59,446 nt of DNA from Candidatus Woesearchaeota archaeon. GTDB lineage: Archaea; Nanobdellota; Nanobdellia; Woesearchaeales; JAFGLG01. Position 1 is the first letter of the stretch, and the number at the start of each line of letters is the position of its first letter. The position numbers were made by a program, and so were the translations under genes. The notes under the pieces were generated by a model. The model was not told where the DNA came from. It saw only the letters and a list, made by a program, of their open reading frames with translations, and did not search any database. The stretch lies in the NCBI GenBank assembly GCA_016928155.1, contig JAFGLG010000008.1:1-59446 (forward strand), given 5' to 3'. Below are positions 37,101-49,189 of this stretch, one piece after another.

Positions 37101-38488
37101 AAATTATTAGGACCTGGAAAGAACTCAAGTGTCTCATTCAGCGTCCCATTAATGTATAATGAACAATTGACATAATCTGAATCACTGTCTGAAATGTTGA
37201 AAAAAAGACTGATATTATCCTGAGCAAGAGGGATCCCATCCGGAGAGACAAGAGATACAATAGGCTGATAATATGCTACAGCAGCCAAGACATCAATCCT
37301 CGGGAAGCTCATGCTGTTTGCAGAATCAAAAACAGGCACGCCAGTATTCTTCAAGATATCCTCTTTCTCATCAGGAGTGAGAGCCATGCCATACTTGAGA
37401 CCATAATATTGCGACATCAAGGCCAATGCTGCAGAGACATGAGGAGCACTCATCGAGGTGCCGTTCATCTCCTGATAATTATTAGTTAGATAAGTTGAAT
37501 TTATGATTCTTCCTGGTGCAAAAAGATCCAAAGAGATGTCTCTGCAAGTAAATGATGAAATTAGATTATCTTCATCTACAGAACCGACTGAAACAACATT
37601 CTCAGCACAGGCAGGATAGGTCATTGATGAAGCATCACAATTATCAAAAGCATCAATGTTCCCCGCAGCTGCAACCAAAGATATGTTGGCAGCATGGGCT
37701 GCATCTATATTATAATCAAAAAGACCTAAGTTAGGAGCACAGTCATCACCAAGGCTCATAGATATCACTGTGATGTTATACAGATCTATATTCGAAACAC
37801 ACCAGTCAATTCCCAGGGCAATATCTGTTCCTTCACCTATACCGCTTGAATCCATAACCTTGACTGCCACAATGCTTGCACCGGGGGCCACACCTTTCAG
37901 GTTTCCATCTGCGGCGATTATGCCAGCAACATGGGTGCCGTGGCCATTATCATCAGAAGCATTAACTGATTCATTATTTCCCTGACAGCAATCATCTGAA
38001 CAATAGCATTTCTGGGCAATCACCTTGCCTGCAAGGTCAGGATGATCATCCTGGACACCTGTATCAATGACACACACGGAATAGCCAGCGCCCGTTATGT
38101 CCTGGCCAGATTCCTGAAGAGCCCAGACCTCATCAGCATTTATCTGAGGCACTGAATCTGAAAGCAGTATATGGAATGTGCCAGACCTATGAACTTCAAC
38201 ATCGGGGTCATCCATGAGCTCCCGATAAGCATCCGCTGTGACCATGGCAGTGAAGCCAGGAACAGACTTGAAGTCACGCCTTGACTGGATCTGGTCATTG
38301 ATCTGCAGAGCAGAAACAGTCTGTGGAGGAGCCCTCACATGAGCCACTCTCATTCCCTTGACTGCATCTGGCTGGACATCTTTATAATAGACAATGACTG
38401 GGATAAGGTCATCTGCAGAGGCAAATGAGGCACCTAATAGGATAAGCATCAATACTACCAGCCCATAGGTTTTACTGGAAACCTTCAT
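34145..38488 (-). CDS. Membrane-anchored subtilisin-like serine protease with PGF-pre-PGF-type domain
   Basis: After a signal peptide (to about residue 25) and an I9-like propeptide (to about 110) comes an S8 catalytic domain with the triad D142 (VIDTGVQDD), H183 (NGHGTHVAG) and S345 (NGTSMSAPH). Several Ig-like domains (about 410-1080) follow. A calcium/metal-binding MopE-type stretch with DGEDNDCDGDTDKQDSGC comes next, then a Gly-rich linker and a PGF-pre-PGF-type domain ending GFSYFCIAG. A membrane helix (about 1340-1362) and a cytoplasmic tail complete it. The tail contains the same GW-type module of about 40 residues as the beta-helix receptor and ends HDQFKKLKK. It would cut proteins outside the membrane. 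With 1447 residues it is far larger than a plain subtilisin. A likely substrate class is the neighbouring surface proteins. Confidence 0.9.
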   Translation of the reverse strand: MKVSSKTYGLVVLMLILLGASFASADDLIPVIVYYKDVQPDAVKGMRVAHVRAPPQTVSALQINDQIQSRRDFKSVPGFTAMVTADAYRELMDDPDVEVHRSGTFHILLSDSVPQINADEVWALQESGQDITGAGYSVCVIDTGVQDDHPDLAGKVIAQKCYCSDDCCQGNNESVNASDDNGHGTHVAGIIAADGNLKGVAPGASIVAVKVMDSSGIGEGTDIALGIDWCVSNIDLYNITVISMSLGDDCAPNLGLFDYNIDAAHAANISLVAAAGNIDAFDNCDASSMTYPACAENVVSVGSVDEDNLISSFTCRDISLDLFAPGRIINSTYLTNNYQEMNGTSMSAPHVSAALALMSQYYGLKYGMALTPDEKEDILKNTGVPVFDSANSMSFPRIDVLAAVAYYQPIVSLVSPDGIPLAQDNISLFFNISDSDSDYVNCSLYINGTLNETLEFFPGPNNFVFDGADGYYSWNISCTDEYNDTGYSGTFEFGKDTSIPVVFDLEVFPSSWTNSPLFTFTWEATDMSNISRYYYKFYEAPTSDTDGSMTYMKNLTHNESTAGNHSFYVWAEDILGNIDYNAAVSIIYYFDDVLPDIFLDALGTSYNAPISTSTANITYNVTDLSPEKIWYEFNGRTDLDLEGWTPIPGLFAGRNMIQFFANDSAGNIGSEDITIFANIEIDVNQTLQDLTDASGALGIILTEHDDSAALDGTMLVNGTYDMYIDINVSQIITVLINNFDGLAASWSNDFVINTSDQELNDSLLAAGKEPQLILSFDNFEDFLLDDAYTGNLSVNKSLQPFDFIDYCTNDTECDPLDLCSVDPAPCYTSTGDITSVRFDHLSSIVFYDDSIVGNVTWVSPNSTVYTGTNVGMAFTIGEDVYANYTLDEGPVLRLNSGNPARSFSAVLDGTFMNTTFANGILENGPHNITLYLVDLYDNANSTTYPFTVNDTQSPVLVIFPPDDHEMDVDEDNTTDLRINFTSNEYSNVSYKLNCTFPSHNSAGTIASRALSGSVTKNNLKPGSYDLTITAVDMLGHSRIYSYEFDLEEPSCVDNDGDDWGSANILWCEYTSKKDCDDNDDDINPGDTESGTDECSDGEDNDCDGDTDKQDSGCKTTSSSGGGGGGGSSGLPSDKKEQIFSKILADTWEDMTFSSNDMAYTKVEFKPNKELSNVALRVFSYNGAPDGVAPLKNAYQYLFMKTTNFDDDDLTETQITFRVKKSWVPSDHKPEDISLFRMVDDEWVGLDTSQFSSDAYYYHYSAAPPGFSYFCIAGKQDDPPAAAVALKSDGNDSDVGASSNATANSSMNNVSGNAVRDGWHLSWPGFTFKPITWMIVFLVLIVVGILSYFVYEQKMTPKDEKEFKNRDLSSKISIRETTVPPKKLQAYVDFQLARGHTPSKIRDVLVDAGWGKDLVIKAIKQSPDYKVSMPKSYEEVIQKHDQFKKLKK

Positions 38489-38838
38489 AACACACCCATT
38501 TTTTCTTTTTACCTACCTGTATACTATTTTATATACTAATGATGTAAATTGTGGTTATAAGTATTATATAAATATTTCGCTTTTTCTCTCCCCAATCCAA
38601 AAACAGGAAATATTCACTTCTCCCCAGAAGCGATAGAGGTATTAATACTTTTCTTTTGCTTTAAAAAGGAAGAATCAGTCTCAAATCTGTCTCAAGTCTC
38701 TATTGAGACTGTCTCAAGATTGTCTCATTGAGACCCCATGATTTCCAGTGGAACACCCCCTTATTTCTTATGGAAATGGAACTTGAAAGCCCTGTATGGT
38801 TTTTAGGTTTATTGTCTCAACATGTTGGAAAATTTGTC
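38489..38838. promoter_or_regulatory. Promoter region of the subtilisin gene and start of the TGAGAC cluster
   Basis: TATA-like ATTTATATAATA (about 38562-38573) and GTATATAAAATAG (about 38522-38534) lie upstream of the subtilisin ATG, which has a GGGTGTG site. The left-hand part next to the coiled-coil gene contains eight copies of GTCTCA/TGAGAC between 38678 and 38841. No further gene is seen. Confidence 0.55.
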
Positions 38839-39468
38839 TCATGAGACAGAATTGCTTAAAAGCTCTGATTTAAGCTTTATAGGCTCTTTAGTGACTGTCT
38901 CAGGATTCTGGATGAGTTCTCTGAGCTCATTGTAATATCTATAGAAAGAGGCCTTGGAGCAGAACTGCTCAATATCCACAATCTGGGCCTTAAGCTCTGG
39001 AAGAGTCAGATCCTTGGCCTTGAGGGTCTCAATAATCTTTGTCTTGATAATCTTCTTGCGGTTCTTGTCAATCTTCTTGTAATACTCAGCCTTGAGTCTC
39101 ATGTCAGGTGATGGGAGCGGCTGAGACTGGACCTGGATGGGTTGCTGAGACAATGGCTGAGACTGAACATTCAAGGCCTGTGAGACAATGAGCTGTGCCT
39201 TCACATCTTCGACAAGGGACTGCATTGATGCTCTCAGGCCCGCAAGAAAGGCTTCCTGCTCCTTGGCTATCCTGAGCTGAGCCCCCTTTAGCCCGAGGTC
39301 AAGCTCTGCCATCCTGAGCTTCAATGAATCCATAGCAGACTGGAAAGAATCAAGCTTCTCATTGCTCTTTGAGATATCCTCCTTCACTTTTGTAAAAGCC
39401 TCCTTGATAGCTTGTCTCTCATCCATGGTCTCAGCTGAGACAGACAGGTATATATGGATTCCTGAGAC
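38678..39468. repeat. Cluster of 19 GTCTCA/TGAGAC sites spanning one gene and its flanks
   Basis: Exact hexamers begin at 38678, 38689, 38704, 38711, 38722, 38729, 38814, 38836, 38842, 38897, 39026, 39096, 39122, 39146, 39158, 39181, 39428, 39436 and 39463. By chance fewer than one would be expected in 790 bases. Some pair into palindromes: GTCTCATGAGAC (38836-38847) over the stop codon, and GTCTCAGCTGAGAC (39428-39441) directly between the TATA box and the start codon. They occur in both coding and non-coding DNA, so they are not just a protein repeat. The likely reader is the DNA-binding protein encoded inside. Confidence 0.85.
38839..39426 (-). CDS. Coiled-coil protein with C-terminal helix-turn-helix-like domain
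   Basis: Residues about 1-80 are a heptad-rich coiled coil. Residues about 81-112 are a Ser/Gln/Pro-rich linker (SQPLSQQPIQVQSQPLP). Residues about 118-180 are basic and helical, with LTLPELKAQIVDIEQFCSKASFYRYYNEL resembling a helix-turn-helix with the recognition helix at SKASFYRYY. The ATG at 39426 lies 26 bases after the TATA-like CATATATACC, and a perfect GTCTCAGCTGAGAC palindrome fills the space between. A longer frame upstream of the TATA box is rejected. The gene is embedded in 19 TGAGAC/GTCTCA sites, suggesting that the protein binds them to control itself or to build a nucleoprotein structure. I do not recognise a named family. It is the only evidently cytoplasmic protein between the large surface genes. 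Confidence 0.75.
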   Translation of the reverse strand: MDERQAIKEAFTKVKEDISKSNEKLDSFQSAMDSLKLRMAELDLGLKGAQLRIAKEQEAFLAGLRASMQSLVEDVKAQLIVSQALNVQSQPLSQQPIQVQSQPLPSPDMRLKAEYYKKIDKNRKKIIKTKIIETLKAKDLTLPELKAQIVDIEQFCSKASFYRYYNELRELIQNPETVTKEPIKLKSELLSNSVS

Positions 39469-39886: not shown

Positions 39887-42800
39887 CTATTTCTTGAGCT
39901 TCTCGAACTCCTTATGGATGTGATGCATAGGGTGCCTCTCTTTCTTATGCATGACAAATGCTGCGACAATGCCCACAAGGACCAGTGCCAAGACAATCCA
40001 CAGAGCAAGCATGTTTGTCTTCTTGGCCGGAGCCTTCTCCTGAACTGCAGGAGGCTGTTGTTCTGCTTCTGGCTCAGCAGGCTTATCTGCCGGCTTATCA
40101 GCAGGTTCGGAAGGCTCCTTAGGAGCAACACTTGGCTCAGCAGGCTTCGCCCCTGCAGAATCATCCTTCTTTGCCGAAATCTTCTGGAAGGTCAGGTCAA
40201 AGTTGAACCAGCCAACACGATCCACAGTCAACGCAAGATCATAGACATCATCACCATTGAAGTCAAAGTTAGCAGTCTCACCCTCATTGATGACGGTCCT
40301 GAACGAAGAGGACTGTATCTGGACCTCGACACCGCCATTCAGCTTCTTGACGACCTGCACAGTATGCCAATCGTTGTCTATCATGAAAGTCACCCTGTCA
40401 GCAGAAGAGACAGTCTGCTTCACTGGCTCGCCTGTCTGGAACTCCTCATTGATGTCATAAGTGTTAGAGACAGCACCTTTCAGCACAAGAGGCGAGCTGC
40501 CACCTTTCATGACCATGGGGGAGCCTCCGGTTGATGATGAAGGCTTGCTTCCAAAGATGCCAAACAAGGAAAAATGGGTTATATTAGCCCAGACATAATT
40601 ATTTGTGGTGTTGACACCTCCCTCTGGAGGATTGAAGATGTGCCAAGCTCCTGTGTCATTGTCAAAATACTCTATCCTGAGCGAACTCTCTGTGAATCCT
40701 GATGCTGCAAGCTCCTCGTCAGTGTACCAGATCTTCAGGATCCACCACGTGACATTCATTGAGGTATTGTCCGGAGTGACATCCACATACTTGCCGAATG
40801 GCGCCAATGAATAACCAGAAGAGCCAGTCGGATTACTGTTATAGAAGCTAATCTGCACATCACCAGCATATGGAGTCCCTGTGTGGATATCAACCTCAAC
40901 ACCATAAGACTGATTCCCTACAGAATCATTGCCGCTGGTTGTGTCAACTGGGAACTCAATAACACCCTGCTGGGAATTATTGAACACAACACCAGCAACA
41001 GTTATGGTGCAGTTCTGCTGAGTTATTGAACCACCTAATGGGAGGATGTAACCCTCCAGAATGATGATATCATTATTCCTGCATGTGACATCATCAGTCA
41101 ATACCCAGTTGACAGAACCTGTTGATATCTGGTCAAGCAAACCATAATCACCATTATCCAACAAATTGCCGTTCTCCAACTCCACATGAGAACTTATGAG
41201 ATGCAGACCTGTTGTGGCACATTCAGGATTGTTCATATGGTTGTCGCTGAAATCAGTATCAGAGATGTACAATTGCGAACCATCGACAGTTGCACCATGG
41301 CAGTTTCCATAGACAGCTGAATCACTTATGCTGGAATCAGTACCCTGAAGGTTCTGCATGTACATACCATACCAGTTATCATGGTATGAATCCTCGACCA
41401 TATCAAATTCGCCTGCAGAGCCTGCATAGAAACCCCAATAACAACCTGAGACCTCATTGCCACTAAGGTAGTTACCTACACTACCAGGACCAATCTTGAT
41501 ACCATAAGTGTTGCTCATGATACCACAATCTAGGGTATTGTCAAGCACATCTGTGTACTCATCCATTATCTGGATGCCTATCGTGTTTGGATTGGTGCCT
41601 GTGATATCATTTGATTCTATAGTGTTGTATGATGTGGATCCCCCTTCAAGCAGTATTCCCTTGCTGCTGAACTCAGTGATATTATTATCCATAACATCAC
41701 TGAAACCGACATTCTGGAAATAAACACCGATATTGGCATCCTCTATTGTATTGCCTGAGATGGTCATGCCCTCTGAATTCAAGACATGCACGCCATCACT
41801 AGAGCTCCTCAGGATTGTGTTGCCAGAGACTGTGACATTATCCTCATCCTCCAGGAATATGGCATTACCTGTGTTGTCAGTGATCAAGTTATTGGATATC
41901 TGATGATCTGATCCTCCCCAACCACGGATACGTATACCATCATTAGCATTGTTGATGATATAATTGTTCAGTATCCTGAGCTCATTGCAACCATAGGCCT
42001 GAATGCCATAACCAGTGCCGTTAGTGATGTTATTGTACCTTATGGTTAGGACTTCAACACCCTCGGCATAGATCTGCCTGATATCACCGCAATTGTCATC
42101 GATGTTATTGTGTTCAATCATATTTGAATCGCTATACATGACATTGATTGCACCATTCCTGTTGCCATGCATGTAGATGCCGCTGATGGTGTTGGAATCA
42201 GAATAATATGTGACATAGATACCAGCTTCAGAGCCAGACCCCATCATATTATTATCAGCAAACTCACCACCAGTTATCTCATTATTGTCGCTATCATAAA
42301 GGTAGAGGCCGGACGCTGTGTTATTATACACAAAGTTCCCATTGAATCTATTCCCATCGCTAGCCTCTAATCTAATACCACGCTGGTTAAATGAAACATT
42401 ATTGCCGATGAGGTCTGAATCTGATACATTATAAAATGAAATACCAGTCACATCCCCCACATTATCATGCACATAATTATCCTGCAATGTATTGCCGGAG
42501 GAATGCACGACCTGGATGCCAGTCGCGAAATTTGTTATCTCACAGTTCTCCACAGTTATCCCGGAATTGCCCATTATCGAGATGCCTTGAGCATAAGCAT
42601 TACCGGTGATGCTGTATCCATCACAATCTATTATTATATCATCTGCATCCACTATCAGGCCATCACCATCGCATGCTATGTCACCAGGCAAGGTGAAATC
42701 AGATGTCACACTCATGCCACAGATCTTAACATCCCTTTCCAGATACTGTGATTCTGTGTGCCCAAAAGCATCTGCAGCAACCACAGATATGTTGATGCTT

Positions 42801-45800
42801 GGATAATCCCCAGTGCTCGTGGTATAATTGAAATCGCAAATCCCATCAGTAGAACTTATCTTTTTGTTGAGGGTCCCATTTATGTAGAGGCTGCAGTTGA
42901 TTCCCAAATGCAAGGTGGTATCATTCCATTCTGAATATATCTCGATAGTATCACCTACTGAATAATCAGGCTCATCAGATTCTAGGTCCAGATTCACAGG
43001 AGCAGACTTGTCAAGAGCAGCATATATGGTCTTTTGTGTCTCTGCCTTGCCTGCATTGTTGACGCTGTAGAAATCAAGCGAATGATTCCCATCTGTTGTG
43101 ATTGGTAATATTGTCGGATTCTCTGTGCTCTTTTGCCAAGCACCACCATCAACGCTGTAATTAGTGTAATCTATGCCAGTCACACCCTGATCAGTAGCAT
43201 TCAAAGTGACATTGAAGTCAGCAGTCTGCCATCCTGGTATATAATATGCCTGTGTGTAAGGGACTGATGTGTCGACAAGGAAACTGATATTCCCTGTCAC
43301 ATTTTTACCAGGATAATCCCCACCATAATCCCATGCAATAACATAAAGGTTGTGATTACCATCACCGAGGTTCACATCTGTGAAATTGCATATGGTAATC
43401 TCTGGCTGACCATCTACACCGTAGCAGTCAGTCTCATTTATTATTGCAAGCAATTCCCCGTCAAGGTAAGGCATTATATTGCTAATAGGAGTGCCTGTGC
43501 CATTGAGCTCAAACCAGACCTGGGTAACATTCTCTGAGTAAATTGAATTATTGGTCGGGAATTCAAATGAAAGTGTAGGACTCACATTATCAGTCAATGT
43601 ATAACCTGAGAAGCCATACACATCAAAAGTAAGATTCCCAGTGATGTTGACAGGGAAATTCACTGGGTCAAAATAAAGATCATCATAACCCACAACATAG
43701 GTCACAGAACCACTATCAAAACCAGCTGCACCACCATCCGGGATAATCACAGGCGTCTCGGTGAATGGCAAGTGGAACATTGATATTGATGTGTTAGTGT
43801 CCAGCTCCCCAAAGAATGTTGTGTTAACATATATATACCCATCACCAAAGCTGTAAGGGATCGGAAGCTCCATATCCAGAGCTGCAGGGAGACCCATCAA
43901 TCTGAAAGCTATTGACTCATCCTCAAAATCCAGTGATGCAAATTCAAGCAGAATGAAAGTCGTGAATGTCTCAGGACCCCAGAATCCCCCATTCATGCAG
44001 GAAAGATTGGCCTGAATCTCCAATACAAGATTGACGTCAGTGAAATCTGTGACTTGATTCAGATCTGTGGTGGCAGGACCAAACTGCAAGCAAGGCTCGC
44101 CTTCCATCTCGAACACACCAAGGTCATGGATGAGCACAGCAGAGAATGCAGGATTGCAGGTCTCATTATAAGGGTAGGTTCCAAGCATTGACCAGTCAAC
44201 ATCACAGATGCAGTCAGCTGAATCAGCGCAAGAATCATCTGAATTATTATACATGTTGTTCTCGTTACCAAAAGCATCAATGGCAAAAATCATCAAGCTG
44301 CCAGACTGAACAGGGCTCTGAGGATCATCTGGAATCAAATCAAGCTCATCAAATTCTCCTAGAGTGCAGTTTCCATAAAATAGATCCCCACCCAAATGGG
44401 TCAGATTGAAGATCTCATCACAGTCGCTGTTAGGCAGATTTGTCATTGGATTCCCATCCATACCCATCATCTGAGCCTGGACCAATCCAACAAGAATATC
44501 ATCAGTCACATTTACCAAGACATGGACAGTATTATCATCAGGACTGAAGAAGAAATCAGGATTATCTAATATATCATGCGGCTCTGGGATGGTCTCATTC
44601 TCACCAGGATTCCAGTGATCGATCACAGTCCTCCAAGCAAAGTGCACATCAGGCCTTGTGAAGTCAGCCCACACAGTGAAGTTACTCTCATCTGTTGCAG
44701 GTGTATTATTCACATATGCTGTGGCTGTGAAGATGTTCTCACCTTCAGACATCATGCTCTTGTTCATCAGACAGTTCAGATAGAAATCACCCTTACCAAA
44801 ATCAAACATCATAGGAGCAGGATCAGGCCATCCGATGCAGACACCATCATGTGTCAGATTGACAAGATAAATTCCGTTGCTTGAAGCATTGACATAAAAA
44901 GTTAAGTTATAAGGCTGATCCATGGAATTACCGATGCCAACCCAAGTCTCATTCTCGAAGAACTCTCCAAACTCGTCTTCTCCATCGAAATAGGTTATAT
45001 CAACAAAGGCACAGACAGGGGGTGATGAATAGGTTTCCCAGCCATATGACATGTTGTACGCAAAGCTGTCAGTCACATTATCATTATCTGAATCTGTACC
45101 GGGAACAAAGGTCGGACAGGAAGCGTGACCCCAGAAATTACCCTCAGAGCCATTAGAAAGCTCAATCTGGGATACAGAGGTCACCTGCCAGTTGGTGTTA
45201 TCATATATATTATTGTGGAATATCAGCATGTCTGTAACTGAATTGCCAATATTAAGCCCATTCACATTATTGTATAATGTATTGTTCATGATGGTGGAGT
45301 ATGTGACAGAATCAACATAGATTCCGTTGCTTCCACAGTCATGGACGATATTGTGCTCAATGAAACCATTAATCGCATAGGAGACAAAAATCCCATTATT
45401 TGACATATTATAAATGGTGTTGCCCTGGATCATATCCCCAGAATATGAATCATACAAATTAATCCCATTGGTGCCGTCAAAAATCTCATTGTTTATTAAC
45501 CTAATCCAGTTCGCTGACTGTCTTGAGAAGATCCCGTCATTACTCAGATCTTGGATTATGCAGGATTCAACTGTCAGATAATCACCGCTGTCTGCCATCG
45601 GATCATCATTGTTGATCCCATAATCGAAAGTGCTTATTGTGCAGTTCCTTATCGTCACATTATCAGATCCCGGCAAGACCGAGATCCCGTTCCCTGAATA
45701 AGACCCATCCCCAGTCAATGAGTGACCTGCGCAGTCAACAACAAGATCGCTGCCATTTATGCTCAAAGCAGTGTCATTGCATCCCAACAAATCATCCTGC

Positions 45801-48800
45801 AAAACAACTGATGTGATTATCGTCTCGCCACAAACGCACACAGGATAATCATAGTCAAGAGTTGTCATCGCAAAATCTGTGTAATAAGGCAAAAGACTGC
45901 CTTTGCTAATGCCCAAATTCGCATTACAGAGATAACCACCCCAGAAATTCAGTGTGGCATTATTGCCGGATCCGCTGATAACATCCAGATCATAAAGTGT
46001 GTTGTTGTATAACCAGTTTTGGTGCAGGATATTTGAATTGCCGCTCAAATAGACACCATAATTGTTCAAGCTTGCCGAATTATTGAAGATCGTGTTGCCG
46101 CTCGAGCCTGCATCAAGCGAAATCCCCATGTTGTTCCCATTCAGCTGATTATTGGTGATATCATTATTGTTACAGGATGAAGCTGAACCAAGGTAAATGC
46201 CGCTCTGCCCGTTGTTATCTGCAATATTATTCTCAATTAGGTTGTTATTAGAACCATCGCGCAAGATAATCCCTTGATTAGCATTCGAGCTCACGATGTT
46301 ATCCAATATATTACTGTCCGAGCTGGATTTGAATGATATTCCCTCAGTGAAGTTAGTTATGGTACAGTTCTTAATTGTTATATTATCAAAACCAGCGGAA
46401 TTATTGATACCATAACCTGAACCGCTGCCTGTGATGGAATGACCATTGCAGTCGAGAACTATATTGCTTGCATTTATGACCAAGCCATCACCAAAGCAGG
46501 CAAGATCAATTGAAAGGAACCAACTGGATGTGACCTGATCACCACAGGAGATATCGGGTATATTATCAATGCTAAAATTACTATAATCCTGTGAATGGGT
46601 GAAGTTAGAGCAGAGACCGCCGTCATCACAGCAGAGAATCAGGAAATCATAGATGCCATCATCCACAACAGAGGTGTTCCAGACATGCCATTCTCCAGCC
46701 ATGCTGTCATTGATGCTCATGTTGAAAGAGTGATCTGCATTCAGCAGTGAAAGATTGTATGTGACTGCATCTCCGTTAGGATCGATGCATGGAGCCCATG
46801 AGATGTTGATCATACCATCATATGTCCCATTCATGGGGCTGAAGAATGATGTCGGTGTCGGAGGCAGAGCAGGCAGGTCAGAGAAAAACATATCCTCGCT
46901 CTCGCAGACACTTGAGATGCCATCATCAGCGCAGACTGTAACATTCAGGCCATCGCTAAAGGCGATGTTATTCCTGGCAAAATGCACATGGACATCAGGG
47001 CAGCCGGACTGCGAAACAACGCTCCAGCCACTGGAATCACCGCGATACCAGCTGTTGGTATTGTTGCACAAAGACGAAGGCCTATACTGGAGCTCCCAAG
47101 CCCTGGACGATACAGCATTCTGGGACTGGGTGGCTACTACCCAGAAATCGCCTGACACATTGATATTTTTTGTCCCGATAGTGCCGTCAGGATTCGTTGA
47201 AAGCCTGATAAGATGATGGCTCGAATTTGATGTATGGACATGATGAGGGACAGCGCCAAGAGCAATGCTGCCTACAAGTTCAGCGTCTGCATCAGCGCGC
47301 CAGTCGCTCTGGAAATAAGTTGAATCGTGGCCCTGCCCGACAAGATAGACGACAAAACCCTGTGTAGAGCCCGGTTTCTGGTCGACATCAAGCTCGACCC
47401 AGAAACTCGTGTTCTCAACCATAGTGAAATTATTCACGAAATGCATGATGTGATAATTCCTCCTGTGGAGATCAATTGGCGACGGAGCATTGTACCAGAA
47501 AACATCATCAGATCCAAATGAGATCTGAGGATAGAGGAAATCAGGCCTGAGGAAATCTGACCTGTACAGGATATCAGAGAGGTTATCCATAGGGCCCTGA
47601 ACAGGATAAGAGGCGCATGAGCCATCAACATAATACTGCCAGCAGAAAGAATCAGGGTTGATGCCTTCTACTGAATAATTGGCTGTAATGTCATGGGATG
47701 AGTTGATTGTGGAGTTGATATGATATGAACCGAAAAAGAGTATATCAAGCGCAGGATCCAGCGAAATGCTGGTAATATCCAAATAATGTACAAATGGGTT
47801 TATCGAGAAAGGCACAGTGACTGAATCCTCACTCATCGCGCCAAAATCATTGTAGAACTCTGCAGTGTTATTCGAAGTCATGTTATCCAGAGCAGTGAAA
47901 TTGATGAAAACAATGAATGACTGATTCTCACCCAGACCGGTAAGGTTCCATGCGAGCATACCGATAGTCCTGTTGTCGATCATGAAGGACTCATTGCTCG
48001 CAGAAGAGAAATTCAGCACAGCAGGATCAAAATTATCCCTCAGAGAGAAACCCATGAAAGGACCAGACTGATTATTTGTGATGTTGAGCATGAAAGTGAC
48101 AGTGTCACCGACAGTTATATTGCCTCCGTTCAGCAGAGTCTTGTTCAGGATGAAGAATCCTGCCGGAGGGGCACCCATGTTCAGATAATAATCCTCTGTC
48201 TCGCCGTCCTCAAAGCACAAGCCAGGACCAGAGCCGTCATAATTCATGGAAGGTGTCGGAGAAAGAGTCATCCTCATCCACATAGGTCCTGATTCAGGAT
48301 CAAAAGGGAGGAAAACTGTTGTGTTGAAAGTAAGAGTCACAGGGCTAGCCTGGCCGCCGACATAGACAAGCTGGTTCTGGACAGCCCATTCAGGGGCATC
48401 ATCAGGGAGATAACATGTGCTGTTATCAGCCCAGTCACCATCCCTGTTCCAGTCAAACCAAGCATTGAAGCTATAGTTGGCATACAAATCATCAATAAGA
48501 TTCGTTATGGTCACATTGAAGGAGAAGTTTGTAGGAGTGCAATTCATAAGATTCAGAGTCGGATAGAGCAGGCCATCATCAAAGCCGTCCTGGTCAGGGC
48601 TGTCGACAGAAGGGTCGATGTTGATCATCATATCCTGGTCAGGCATAAGATCCGCGTCAGCCTCTATTGTCACATTATCGCCAAGCCATGTCCAGAGATA
48701 TGAACCAGAATGACAAGGACCGTATGGGGCACCAAGAGTGAAATCAAAGACAGAAGGGTAAGCTGCAATTATCCCAGGAGGATAAGCTGTCATAGGCATT

Positions 48801-49189
48801 GCAAAATGATTCGAAGAGTCAGGTGCATCGCCGAAGTCAGCAGGACAGGCTGTGGTGTTCTCCATCCAGCAATCAGGATCATCACAGTCCATGAAGCCAT
48901 CAGCGTCGTTATCGAATAAATCACTGCATGAGGTCTCCACAGCTTCACAAAGTTGACCCAATGGTCCACCAACTTGTGCAAGGCATTCGTCATCCGCGCA
49001 GTCTGTAAACCCATCAGGCTCATTGTCGATAGAGTCATTGCATGGACCTACGCCTCCCTCCAGTGCAAGTGCAGAGCTAACGCTAAGGGCTAAAATGACA
49101 AATGTAAGAATGGCGAGAATCATCCATCGCGGGATTGAGAAAGAAGATTTAGCGTTGAAGCAACTAATGCTATCTGTATCATTCCCCAT
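39887..49189 (-). CDS. Giant (3100-residue) multi-domain beta-helix surface protein
   Basis: A signal segment (about residues 20-42) is followed by two cysteine/aspartate repeats (DGFTDCADDEC, DGFMDCDDPDC). A GEVED-type domain (FNAWFDWNRDGDWAD ... ETEDYYL), a DUF11-like domain (GDTVTFMLNITNNQSG), lectin- and FN3-like regions, and three separate right-handed beta-helix blocks of NosD type (about 890-1130, 1160-1400 and 2080-2480) follow, with Ig-like domains between. A C-terminal module resembles that of the next gene: FGIFGSKPSSSTGGSPMVMKGG, a second SPLVLKG, a beta domain with EGETANFDFNGDDVYDLAL, a Pro/Ala/Glu/Lys stalk, a membrane helix (about 3066-3088) and the tail FEKLKK. Sequons are abundant. 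The AAGAGGGG site 6 bases before the ATG supports the start. Likely roles are adhesion or carbohydrate binding. Confidence 0.82.
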   Translation of the reverse strand: MGNDTDSISCFNAKSSFSIPRWMILAILTFVILALSVSSALALEGGVGPCNDSIDNEPDGFTDCADDECLAQVGGPLGQLCEAVETSCSDLFDNDADGFMDCDDPDCWMENTTACPADFGDAPDSSNHFAMPMTAYPPGIIAAYPSVFDFTLGAPYGPCHSGSYLWTWLGDNVTIEADADLMPDQDMMINIDPSVDSPDQDGFDDGLLYPTLNLMNCTPTNFSFNVTITNLIDDLYANYSFNAWFDWNRDGDWADNSTCYLPDDAPEWAVQNQLVYVGGQASPVTLTFNTTVFLPFDPESGPMWMRMTLSPTPSMNYDGSGPGLCFEDGETEDYYLNMGAPPAGFFILNKTLLNGGNITVGDTVTFMLNITNNQSGPFMGFSLRDNFDPAVLNFSSASNESFMIDNRTIGMLAWNLTGLGENQSFIVFINFTALDNMTSNNTAEFYNDFGAMSEDSVTVPFSINPFVHYLDITSISLDPALDILFFGSYHINSTINSSHDITANYSVEGINPDSFCWQYYVDGSCASYPVQGPMDNLSDILYRSDFLRPDFLYPQISFGSDDVFWYNAPSPIDLHRRNYHIMHFVNNFTMVENTSFWVELDVDQKPGSTQGFVVYLVGQGHDSTYFQSDWRADADAELVGSIALGAVPHHVHTSNSSHHLIRLSTNPDGTIGTKNINVSGDFWVVATQSQNAVSSRAWELQYRPSSLCNNTNSWYRGDSSGWSVVSQSGCPDVHVHFARNNIAFSDGLNVTVCADDGISSVCESEDMFFSDLPALPPTPTSFFSPMNGTYDGMINISWAPCIDPNGDAVTYNLSLLNADHSFNMSINDSMAGEWHVWNTSVVDDGIYDFLILCCDDGGLCSNFTHSQDYSNFSIDNIPDISCGDQVTSSWFLSIDLACFGDGLVINASNIVLDCNGHSITGSGSGYGINNSAGFDNITIKNCTITNFTEGISFKSSSDSNILDNIVSSNANQGIILRDGSNNNLIENNIADNNGQSGIYLGSASSCNNNDITNNQLNGNNMGISLDAGSSGNTIFNNSASLNNYGVYLSGNSNILHQNWLYNNTLYDLDVISGSGNNATLNFWGGYLCNANLGISKGSLLPYYTDFAMTTLDYDYPVCVCGETIITSVVLQDDLLGCNDTALSINGSDLVVDCAGHSLTGDGSYSGNGISVLPGSDNVTIRNCTISTFDYGINNDDPMADSGDYLTVESCIIQDLSNDGIFSRQSANWIRLINNEIFDGTNGINLYDSYSGDMIQGNTIYNMSNNGIFVSYAINGFIEHNIVHDCGSNGIYVDSVTYSTIMNNTLYNNVNGLNIGNSVTDMLIFHNNIYDNTNWQVTSVSQIELSNGSEGNFWGHASCPTFVPGTDSDNDNVTDSFAYNMSYGWETYSSPPVCAFVDITYFDGEDEFGEFFENETWVGIGNSMDQPYNLTFYVNASSNGIYLVNLTHDGVCIGWPDPAPMMFDFGKGDFYLNCLMNKSMMSEGENIFTATAYVNNTPATDESNFTVWADFTRPDVHFAWRTVIDHWNPGENETIPEPHDILDNPDFFFSPDDNTVHVLVNVTDDILVGLVQAQMMGMDGNPMTNLPNSDCDEIFNLTHLGGDLFYGNCTLGEFDELDLIPDDPQSPVQSGSLMIFAIDAFGNENNMYNNSDDSCADSADCICDVDWSMLGTYPYNETCNPAFSAVLIHDLGVFEMEGEPCLQFGPATTDLNQVTDFTDVNLVLEIQANLSCMNGGFWGPETFTTFILLEFASLDFEDESIAFRLMGLPAALDMELPIPYSFGDGYIYVNTTFFGELDTNTSISMFHLPFTETPVIIPDGGAAGFDSGSVTYVVGYDDLYFDPVNFPVNITGNLTFDVYGFSGYTLTDNVSPTLSFEFPTNNSIYSENVTQVWFELNGTGTPISNIMPYLDGELLAIINETDCYGVDGQPEITICNFTDVNLGDGNHNLYVIAWDYGGDYPGKNVTGNISFLVDTSVPYTQAYYIPGWQTADFNVTLNATDQGVTGIDYTNYSVDGGAWQKSTENPTILPITTDGNHSLDFYSVNNAGKAETQKTIYAALDKSAPVNLDLESDEPDYSVGDTIEIYSEWNDTTLHLGINCSLYINGTLNKKISSTDGICDFNYTTSTGDYPSINISVVAADAFGHTESQYLERDVKICGMSVTSDFTLPGDIACDGDGLIVDADDIIIDCDGYSITGNAYAQGISIMGNSGITVENCEITNFATGIQVVHSSGNTLQDNYVHDNVGDVTGISFYNVSDSDLIGNNVSFNQRGIRLEASDGNRFNGNFVYNNTASGLYLYDSDNNEITGGEFADNNMMGSGSEAGIYVTYYSDSNTISGIYMHGNRNGAINVMYSDSNMIEHNNIDDNCGDIRQIYAEGVEVLTIRYNNITNGTGYGIQAYGCNELRILNNYIINNANDGIRIRGWGGSDHQISNNLITDNTGNAIFLEDEDNVTVSGNTILRSSSDGVHVLNSEGMTISGNTIEDANIGVYFQNVGFSDVMDNNITEFSSKGILLEGGSTSYNTIESNDITGTNPNTIGIQIMDEYTDVLDNTLDCGIMSNTYGIKIGPGSVGNYLSGNEVSGCYWGFYAGSAGEFDMVEDSYHDNWYGMYMQNLQGTDSSISDSAVYGNCHGATVDGSQLYISDTDFSDNHMNNPECATTGLHLISSHVELENGNLLDNGDYGLLDQISTGSVNWVLTDDVTCRNNDIIILEGYILPLGGSITQQNCTITVAGVVFNNSQQGVIEFPVDTTSGNDSVGNQSYGVEVDIHTGTPYAGDVQISFYNSNPTGSSGYSLAPFGKYVDVTPDNTSMNVTWWILKIWYTDEELAASGFTESSLRIEYFDNDTGAWHIFNPPEGGVNTTNNYVWANITHFSLFGIFGSKPSSSTGGSPMVMKGGSSPLVLKGAVSNTYDINEEFQTGEPVKQTVSSADRVTFMIDNDWHTVQVVKKLNGGVEVQIQSSSFRTVINEGETANFDFNGDDVYDLALTVDRVGWFNFDLTFQKISAKKDDSAGAKPAEPSVAPKEPSEPADKPADKPAEPEAEQQPPAVQEKAPAKKTNMLALWIVLALVLVGIVAAFVMHKKERHPMHHIHKEFEKLKK

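Follow-up and report, generated by a model that had tools for sequence, protein, structure and literature searches.

A phased TGAGAC array, its coiled-coil winged-helix protein gene and two Orc1/Cdc6-type boxes at a predicted replication origin locus of a Woesearchaeota genome

Described systems and the locus studied here

The origin recognition box (ORB) is the classical box bound by archaeal Orc1/Cdc6. In ParMRC (R1 parC) and TubZRC, short helically phased repeats lie near a self-encoded DNA-binding protein. The published ORB expression for Methanomicrobia is TCCA[GC]T[GT]GAAA[CT][AG]A[AT]GGGGT (PMC4164010). In multi-origin archaea such as Sulfolobus an initiator gene adjoins each origin; oriC3 uses the winged-helix protein WhiP and has no ORB or miniORB (PMC4010727). 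UBP-ucm of Sulfolobus origins is a case in which a second DNA-binding protein besides Orc1 matters at an ORB origin; UBP has hundreds of genomic binding sites and is not described as origin-encoded (PMC12141716). KfrA (RA3, R751) combines a coiled coil with an N-terminal HTH, has a single repetitive operator of five 9-nt repeats at its own gene, and acts in DNA maintenance (PMC7783346). Replication origins and chromosome partition of DPANN archaea are little studied, and a literature search found nothing specific on either in Woesearchaeota.

The host of the locus described here belongs to a large order of Woesearchaeota-type archaea, and the locus lies in a stretch of 59,446 nucleotides, called the window. 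Its boxes match published ORB expressions, as in archaeal oriC (Sulfolobus oriC1, haloarchaeal and methanogen origins), but orc1 is not adjacent, and a phased array of TGAGAC sites, accompanied by a gene for its own protein, flanks and abuts the ORBs. By layout the locus looks like a replicator-initiator pair such as oriC3-WhiP, in which a winged-helix protein is likewise encoded beside its own site and separately from orc1; unlike oriC3, it has ORBs. A second DNA-binding protein would act here besides Orc1, as in UBP-ucm, and this one is encoded at the locus itself. The single repetitive locus at the protein's own gene, known from KfrA, is present as predicted sites. However, the domain order of KfrA, HTH and then long helix, is reversed in the AlphaFold2 model of the array protein, which has a C-terminal winged helix, and the locus is chromosomal and archaeal with 11-bp phasing and ORBs. 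Compared with ParMRC and TubZRC, it has no motor gene, its repeats extend beyond the promoter and ORBs are present.

The array, the encoded protein and the boxes in the window

Positions 38678-39468 (791 bp) contain exactly 19 TGAGAC/GTCTCA hexamers on both strands. The whole genome carries 849 such sites in 1,483,426 bp. This density predicts 0.45 for 791 bp, and 19 or more have a Poisson probability of 1.5e-24. TGAGAC is the most clustered hexamer of the window, with 19 per 800 bp; the runner-up, an unrelated hexamer, reaches 11. The hexamer is not equally dense across the genome, and same-strand triples with gaps of at most 30 bp occur at the array locus only. The count of 19 and the chance expectation below one given in a preliminary description of this DNA are therefore reproduced, and the two perfect palindromes it reported are real. 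One of them, GTCTCATGAGAC (38836-38847), spans the stop codon of the array gene, and the other, GTCTCAGCTGAGAC (39428-39441), lies between a TATA-like box and the ATG.

The array gene is a type A member of its family and encodes 195 residues on the minus strand (38839..39426, ORF with ATG at 39426). Residues 3-86 (39169..39420) form a long N-terminal helix or coiled coil in the AlphaFold2 model, with pLDDT of about 97 over residues 1-80. A Ser/Gln-rich linker, residues 87-107 (39106..39168), follows as low-confidence coil. The C-terminal winged-helix domain, residues 108-185 (38872..39105), is a conserved block with weak Fur matches and Foldseek matches at the wHTH level. It contains the recognition helix CSKASFYRYYNELRE (38917..38961) of the type A class, in which V150, F161 and Y162 are invariant; the class of this helix predicts the class of the DNA sites. 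No curated family covers the protein. Pfam, NCBIfam and PDB sequence searches gave no family above cut-off, returning coiled-coil noise and weak Fur matches, and Foldseek on the model gave generic winged helices, none below 0.001. The Fur winged helix is weakly matched by 12 of 24 members (best 2.3e-5, below the Pfam cut-off). Membership of the Fur family was rejected, since these matches stay under the cut-off and the model is without a dimerisation or metal domain.

The 19 sites fall into four groups. Block II has six sites (38678, 38689, 38704, 38711, 38722 and 38729; 38678..38734) with same-strand pairs spaced 11 bp, and abuts the proximal ORB. Block I has three (38814, 38836 and 38842; 38814..38847) and contains the stop-codon palindrome. 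Seven more lie within the CDS (38897..39186), and three lie in the promoter region (39428..39468), including GTCTCAGCTGAGAC. The linker and the end of the coil encode four GTCTCA, read as VSQ, QSQ, LSQ and QSQ. In total the CDS holds 8 sites, compared with 2.6 +/- 1.3 after within-gene synonymous shuffling, and none of 20,000 shuffles reaches 8; the codon usage of neighbouring genes predicts 1.6 (p 5e-5). The sites are thus kept by codon choice, as the preliminary description had supposed; for a share of the excess, repeat expansion of the Ser/Gln linker may be responsible instead of selection.

The main clue overlooked in that description is a pair of ORB-type Orc1/Cdc6 boxes inside the array, which points to replication-origin biology. 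Array spacers contain ORB-type elements such as CTCCAGTGGAAATGAAGGGGTG. ORB 1, TTCCACTGGAAATCATGGGGTC (38732..38753, minus strand), has one mismatch to the published ORB expression and a PWM score of 28.7, and its end overlaps the next GTCTCA. At up to three mismatches to that expression the window gives 1 match, compared with 0.09 expected. ORB 2, TTCCATAAGAAATAAGGGGGTG (38754..38775, minus strand), is in tandem at 22 bp from ORB 1 and has the best PWM score of the window, 32.7; it is the single match of TCCANNRGAAANNNNGGGGTG in the genome. The two ORBs (38732-38775) are placed between block I and block II. Orc1 very probably binds at the boxes. Both the phased block and the ORBs sit 3' of the array gene. 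An AT-rich stretch (38480..38640) lies beside block II, with 76% AT in 38480-38579, and is a possible unwinding element or the promoter of the subtilase gene. A consistent AT peak was not found across type-A loci. Large predicted surface proteins flank the locus on the minus strand, a 1447-aa subtilase (PF00082; 34145-38488) and a 3100-aa repeat-rich protein (39887-49189).

Conservation of the array, its protein and its boxes

With a profile built on the HTH part, the family is detected in 90 of the 182 genomes of the order with at least 90% completeness. It is nearly always in single copy, and half of the genomes examined lack it. A survey of the phylum beyond the order gave only weak matches. 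Homologues across many families of the order share about 20-38% identity, and named relatives are mostly from Woesearchaeota and 'Nanoarchaeota' MAGs, including the complete GW2011_AR15 genome (CP010425). A plasmid search found no homologue. IMG/VR viral contigs contain two short relatives that have TGAGAC sites; 98 stretches of these contigs show the array pattern, and the array gene is present in only one.

The array can be found from DNA alone. When 193 genomes were searched for TGAGAC triples spaced 11 bp, 24 matches appeared in 11 genomes and none with the reversed-pattern control, and the homologous gene is present at all 24 loci. Of 22 type-A genomes, 21 contain a looser pattern, each at a single place, and in 20 of them this place is the array gene. 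In named type-A loci TGAGAC reaches 5.7/kb around the gene and 0.28/kb in the rest of the same loci, and the dominant same-strand spacings are 11, 22 and 33 bp. Related genomes are thus not lacking the sites, and the earlier suggestion of a multi-site nucleoprotein element read by its own product is supported by the clustered sites that homologues in other families of the order share.

The recognition helix and the site vary together. The type A helix CSKA[TS]FYRY, which is that of the window, pairs with TGAGAC arrays. The type B helix CSKS[ST]FYR[LI] pairs with TGGGA[AC] arrays (6.3/kb, compared with 0.9/kb elsewhere). Five or more TGAGAC occur in 26 of 30 named type-A loci and five TGGGA[AC] in none of the 30; at least five TGGGA[AC] occur in 38 of 40 named type-B loci, and five of those also have at least five TGAGAC. 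Triples of TGGGA[AC], again searched on DNA alone, are found in 19 genomes at one place each, with a family gene there in all 19. A third helix class, CGRT[AT]FY, pairs with TCCGGAC or GGTTCG arrays (L222-L230 and L239), several of them at an 11-bp lag. The helix classes are old clades, so the correspondence represents few independent changes, not dozens. Direct recognition of the array by the encoded protein is by far the simplest account of it. Since TGAGAC goes with this homologue and TGGGA[A/C] with a paralogue of different helix, the array is taken as the cognate site set of the array protein, and from this pairing of sequences the protein almost certainly binds TGAGAC directly.

The boxes are conserved together with the type A array. 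With the published expression at up to three mismatches, an ORB lies near the gene in 26 of the 30 named type-A loci and in 21 of a further set of 25, which overlaps the first. There are no matches elsewhere within these loci and none in 55 type-B loci. Nor did the type C loci that were checked show an ORB; the general job of the family therefore reaches beyond ORB loci. The ORBs of type-A loci number one or two and are intergenic in most cases. Across whole genomes, strict ORBs are very rare (0-3 each), and those of type-A genomes are mostly at the array locus; four genomes that have type B alone carry them 100-220 bp upstream of orc1. Over 0.8 Mb of a complete type-A genome, only the array locus and the region upstream of orc1 score as ORB with a weight matrix. 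In 15 of 41 ORBs the box runs straight into a GTCTCA site of the array, with the junction GGGGTGTCTCA. This fixed geometry suggests contact between Orc1 and the array protein. Exceptions occur on both sides: arrays at L097 and L105 have no recognisable ORB, and ORBs at L092 and L093 have few exact TGAGAC. One genome has a type A gene (L080/L120) with neither a TGAGAC array nor an ORB, an apparent joint loss of both site types.

The place of the array does not follow the promoter. Of the 30 named type-A loci, 23 have it upstream of the gene. In L084, L085, L112, L113 and L116 it lies beyond the gene's 3' end, and the upstream region has no more than one site. In L084, which has a DUF192 neighbour, and in L112, L113 and L116, where the neighbour is a second HTH gene, the regulator gene alone is inverted and the place and orientation of the array are kept. 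In L084 and L085 the ORBs and the array are downstream together, so what is conserved is the pair of site types and not a promoter. The array is therefore not just an operator, and the dense autoregulatory array proposed in the preliminary description does not hold as stated. Its comparison with parS/ParB does not extend to membership: the protein has no ParB homology, the listed Pfam and NCBIfam matches of 24 members do not include ParB, and genes for ParA, ParM or TubZ were not seen among the neighbours. Beside the array gene there is no ParA-type ATPase; the recurrent neighbours are DUF192, HTH, XerA and methyltransferase genes.

Origin status, mechanism and rival explanations

In the genome of the window orc1 is at C9:180573, and the gene adjacent to the array is that of the array protein. 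By weight matrix, orc1 has linked ORBs in all genomes checked, type-A genomes included, and TGAGAC arrays are absent from these. The type-A locus is thus a second ORB locus, not a moved one, and we rejected an origin that has left orc1. An apparent decay of ORBs in type-A genomes gives p 0.004 with a matrix trained on type-A boxes and p 0.11 with a neutral core; as significance depends on the training set, we do not claim it. In a type-B genome (G009; L282-L321) the strand-averaged skew at third codon positions falls to one clear minimum, which coincides with the orc1-linked ORB (764 kb), and peaks near 145 kb. This is a textbook single-origin profile, and the method works in the order. The type B locus of this genome is at 437 kb and was rejected as the terminus. 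In G118, the only type-A genome sampled, the same skew is flat and uninformative. Plain GC skew was uninformative as well, and that of the window has no switch at the array locus.

We favour, as the probable reading, an Orc1-binding, origin-type locus in which a dedicated coiled-coil winged-helix protein coats phased sites flanking the ORBs and modulates initiation. The two tandem ORBs would be bound by Orc1/Cdc6, and the product of the adjacent gene, a long coiled coil with a winged helix, would bind TGAGAC. Same-strand sites recur every 11 bp, one helical turn, so that many protein copies would sit on one face of the DNA. They would line up on both sides of the ORBs, and their coiled coils could join blocks I and II in a single compact complex, in contact with Orc1 at the fixed junction. 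The likely job of this complex would be to help or restrain initiation at the predicted origin; the next possibility is origin anchoring or segregation. The array and its conservation, near-uniqueness and phasing, the match of helix to site, the ORBs and their abutment are read from the DNA; we infer direct binding, Orc1 contact, bridging and origin firing, and with them a role of the protein in initiation control or origin positioning. Autoregulation probably accompanies the array where sites overlap the promoter. The locus is a concrete, testable origin candidate in uncultured genomes. Its dedicated, origin-linked protein would follow a readable DNA code, in which three helix classes match three site classes at 11-bp phasing, and an assay of the fixed junction between Orc1 and partner would need two purified proteins and a short DNA.

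As the chief rival, the array complex could instead position or segregate the origin as a centromere, like ParB-parS, KfrA or ParR-parC, either by bridging alone or together with a partner whose gene lies elsewhere. A coiled coil with an HTH, a near-unique locus and one phased array per genome near ORBs would fit this, as would type B paralogues near a XerA-type recombinase, and KfrA of plasmid RA3, which has a coiled coil and a single repetitive operator at its gene, supports plasmid maintenance (PMC7783346). However, the recurrent neighbourhood has no ParA, ParM or TubZ gene, half of the order lives without the array gene, and the abutment of ORBs suggests Orc1 rather than a motor; we hold a centromere to be unlikely. 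We give still less weight to a plain autorepressor, in which the array gene is controlled by its product at a multi-site operator and the Orc1 boxes are a second regulatory input. The upstream arrays in 23 of the 30 named type-A loci and the three promoter sites of the window are what it would predict, but not the five loci with the array beyond the 3' end, nor the kept orientation of the array relative to its neighbours where comparable, nor the position of the window's phased block and ORBs 3' of the gene.

Regulation of the surface-protein gene is very improbable. Block II, between the array gene and the 1447-aa subtilase gene, is about 190 bp upstream of the subtilase start and could control its promoter; the neighbours, however, vary between families (DUF192 and others), and the array and ORBs stay. 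Chance, or a functionless low-complexity repeat expansion, is scarcely credible: some of the sites in the CDS do fall in the repetitive Ser/Gln linker, but the array is conserved across many families at about 20-38% identity, phased, matched to the recognition helix and absent from the controls.

Beyond the origin-type reading of the window, we tentatively propose an unnamed order-wide coiled-coil winged-helix family that places phased arrays at special chromosomal loci of Woesearchaeota-type genomes, with one branch for ORB-bearing origins and another, which has a site class of its own, near XerA beside directional AAGTGAG. It may be a previously unknown DPANN system for origin control or chromosome partition, free of ParA and ParB.

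Two minor observations concern viral contigs and type B loci. The relatives on two IMG/VR contigs labelled viral (L189 and L188) have 14 and 5 TGAGAC sites and no ORB; these contigs may be host fragments or mobile elements. Type B loci (L098-L116) show a conserved order of methyltransferase gene, TGGGA[AC] array, B gene and second coiled-coil HTH gene, often with a XerA-type tyrosine recombinase gene. At about -400 to -1200 from the B gene of these loci, AAGTGAG occurs three to seven times at intervals of 60-200 bp, and nearly all copies point the same way. These sites are polar and may be KOPS-like or initiator-like. They lie on the methyltransferase side, and where the B gene is inverted they keep their orientation relative to the array.
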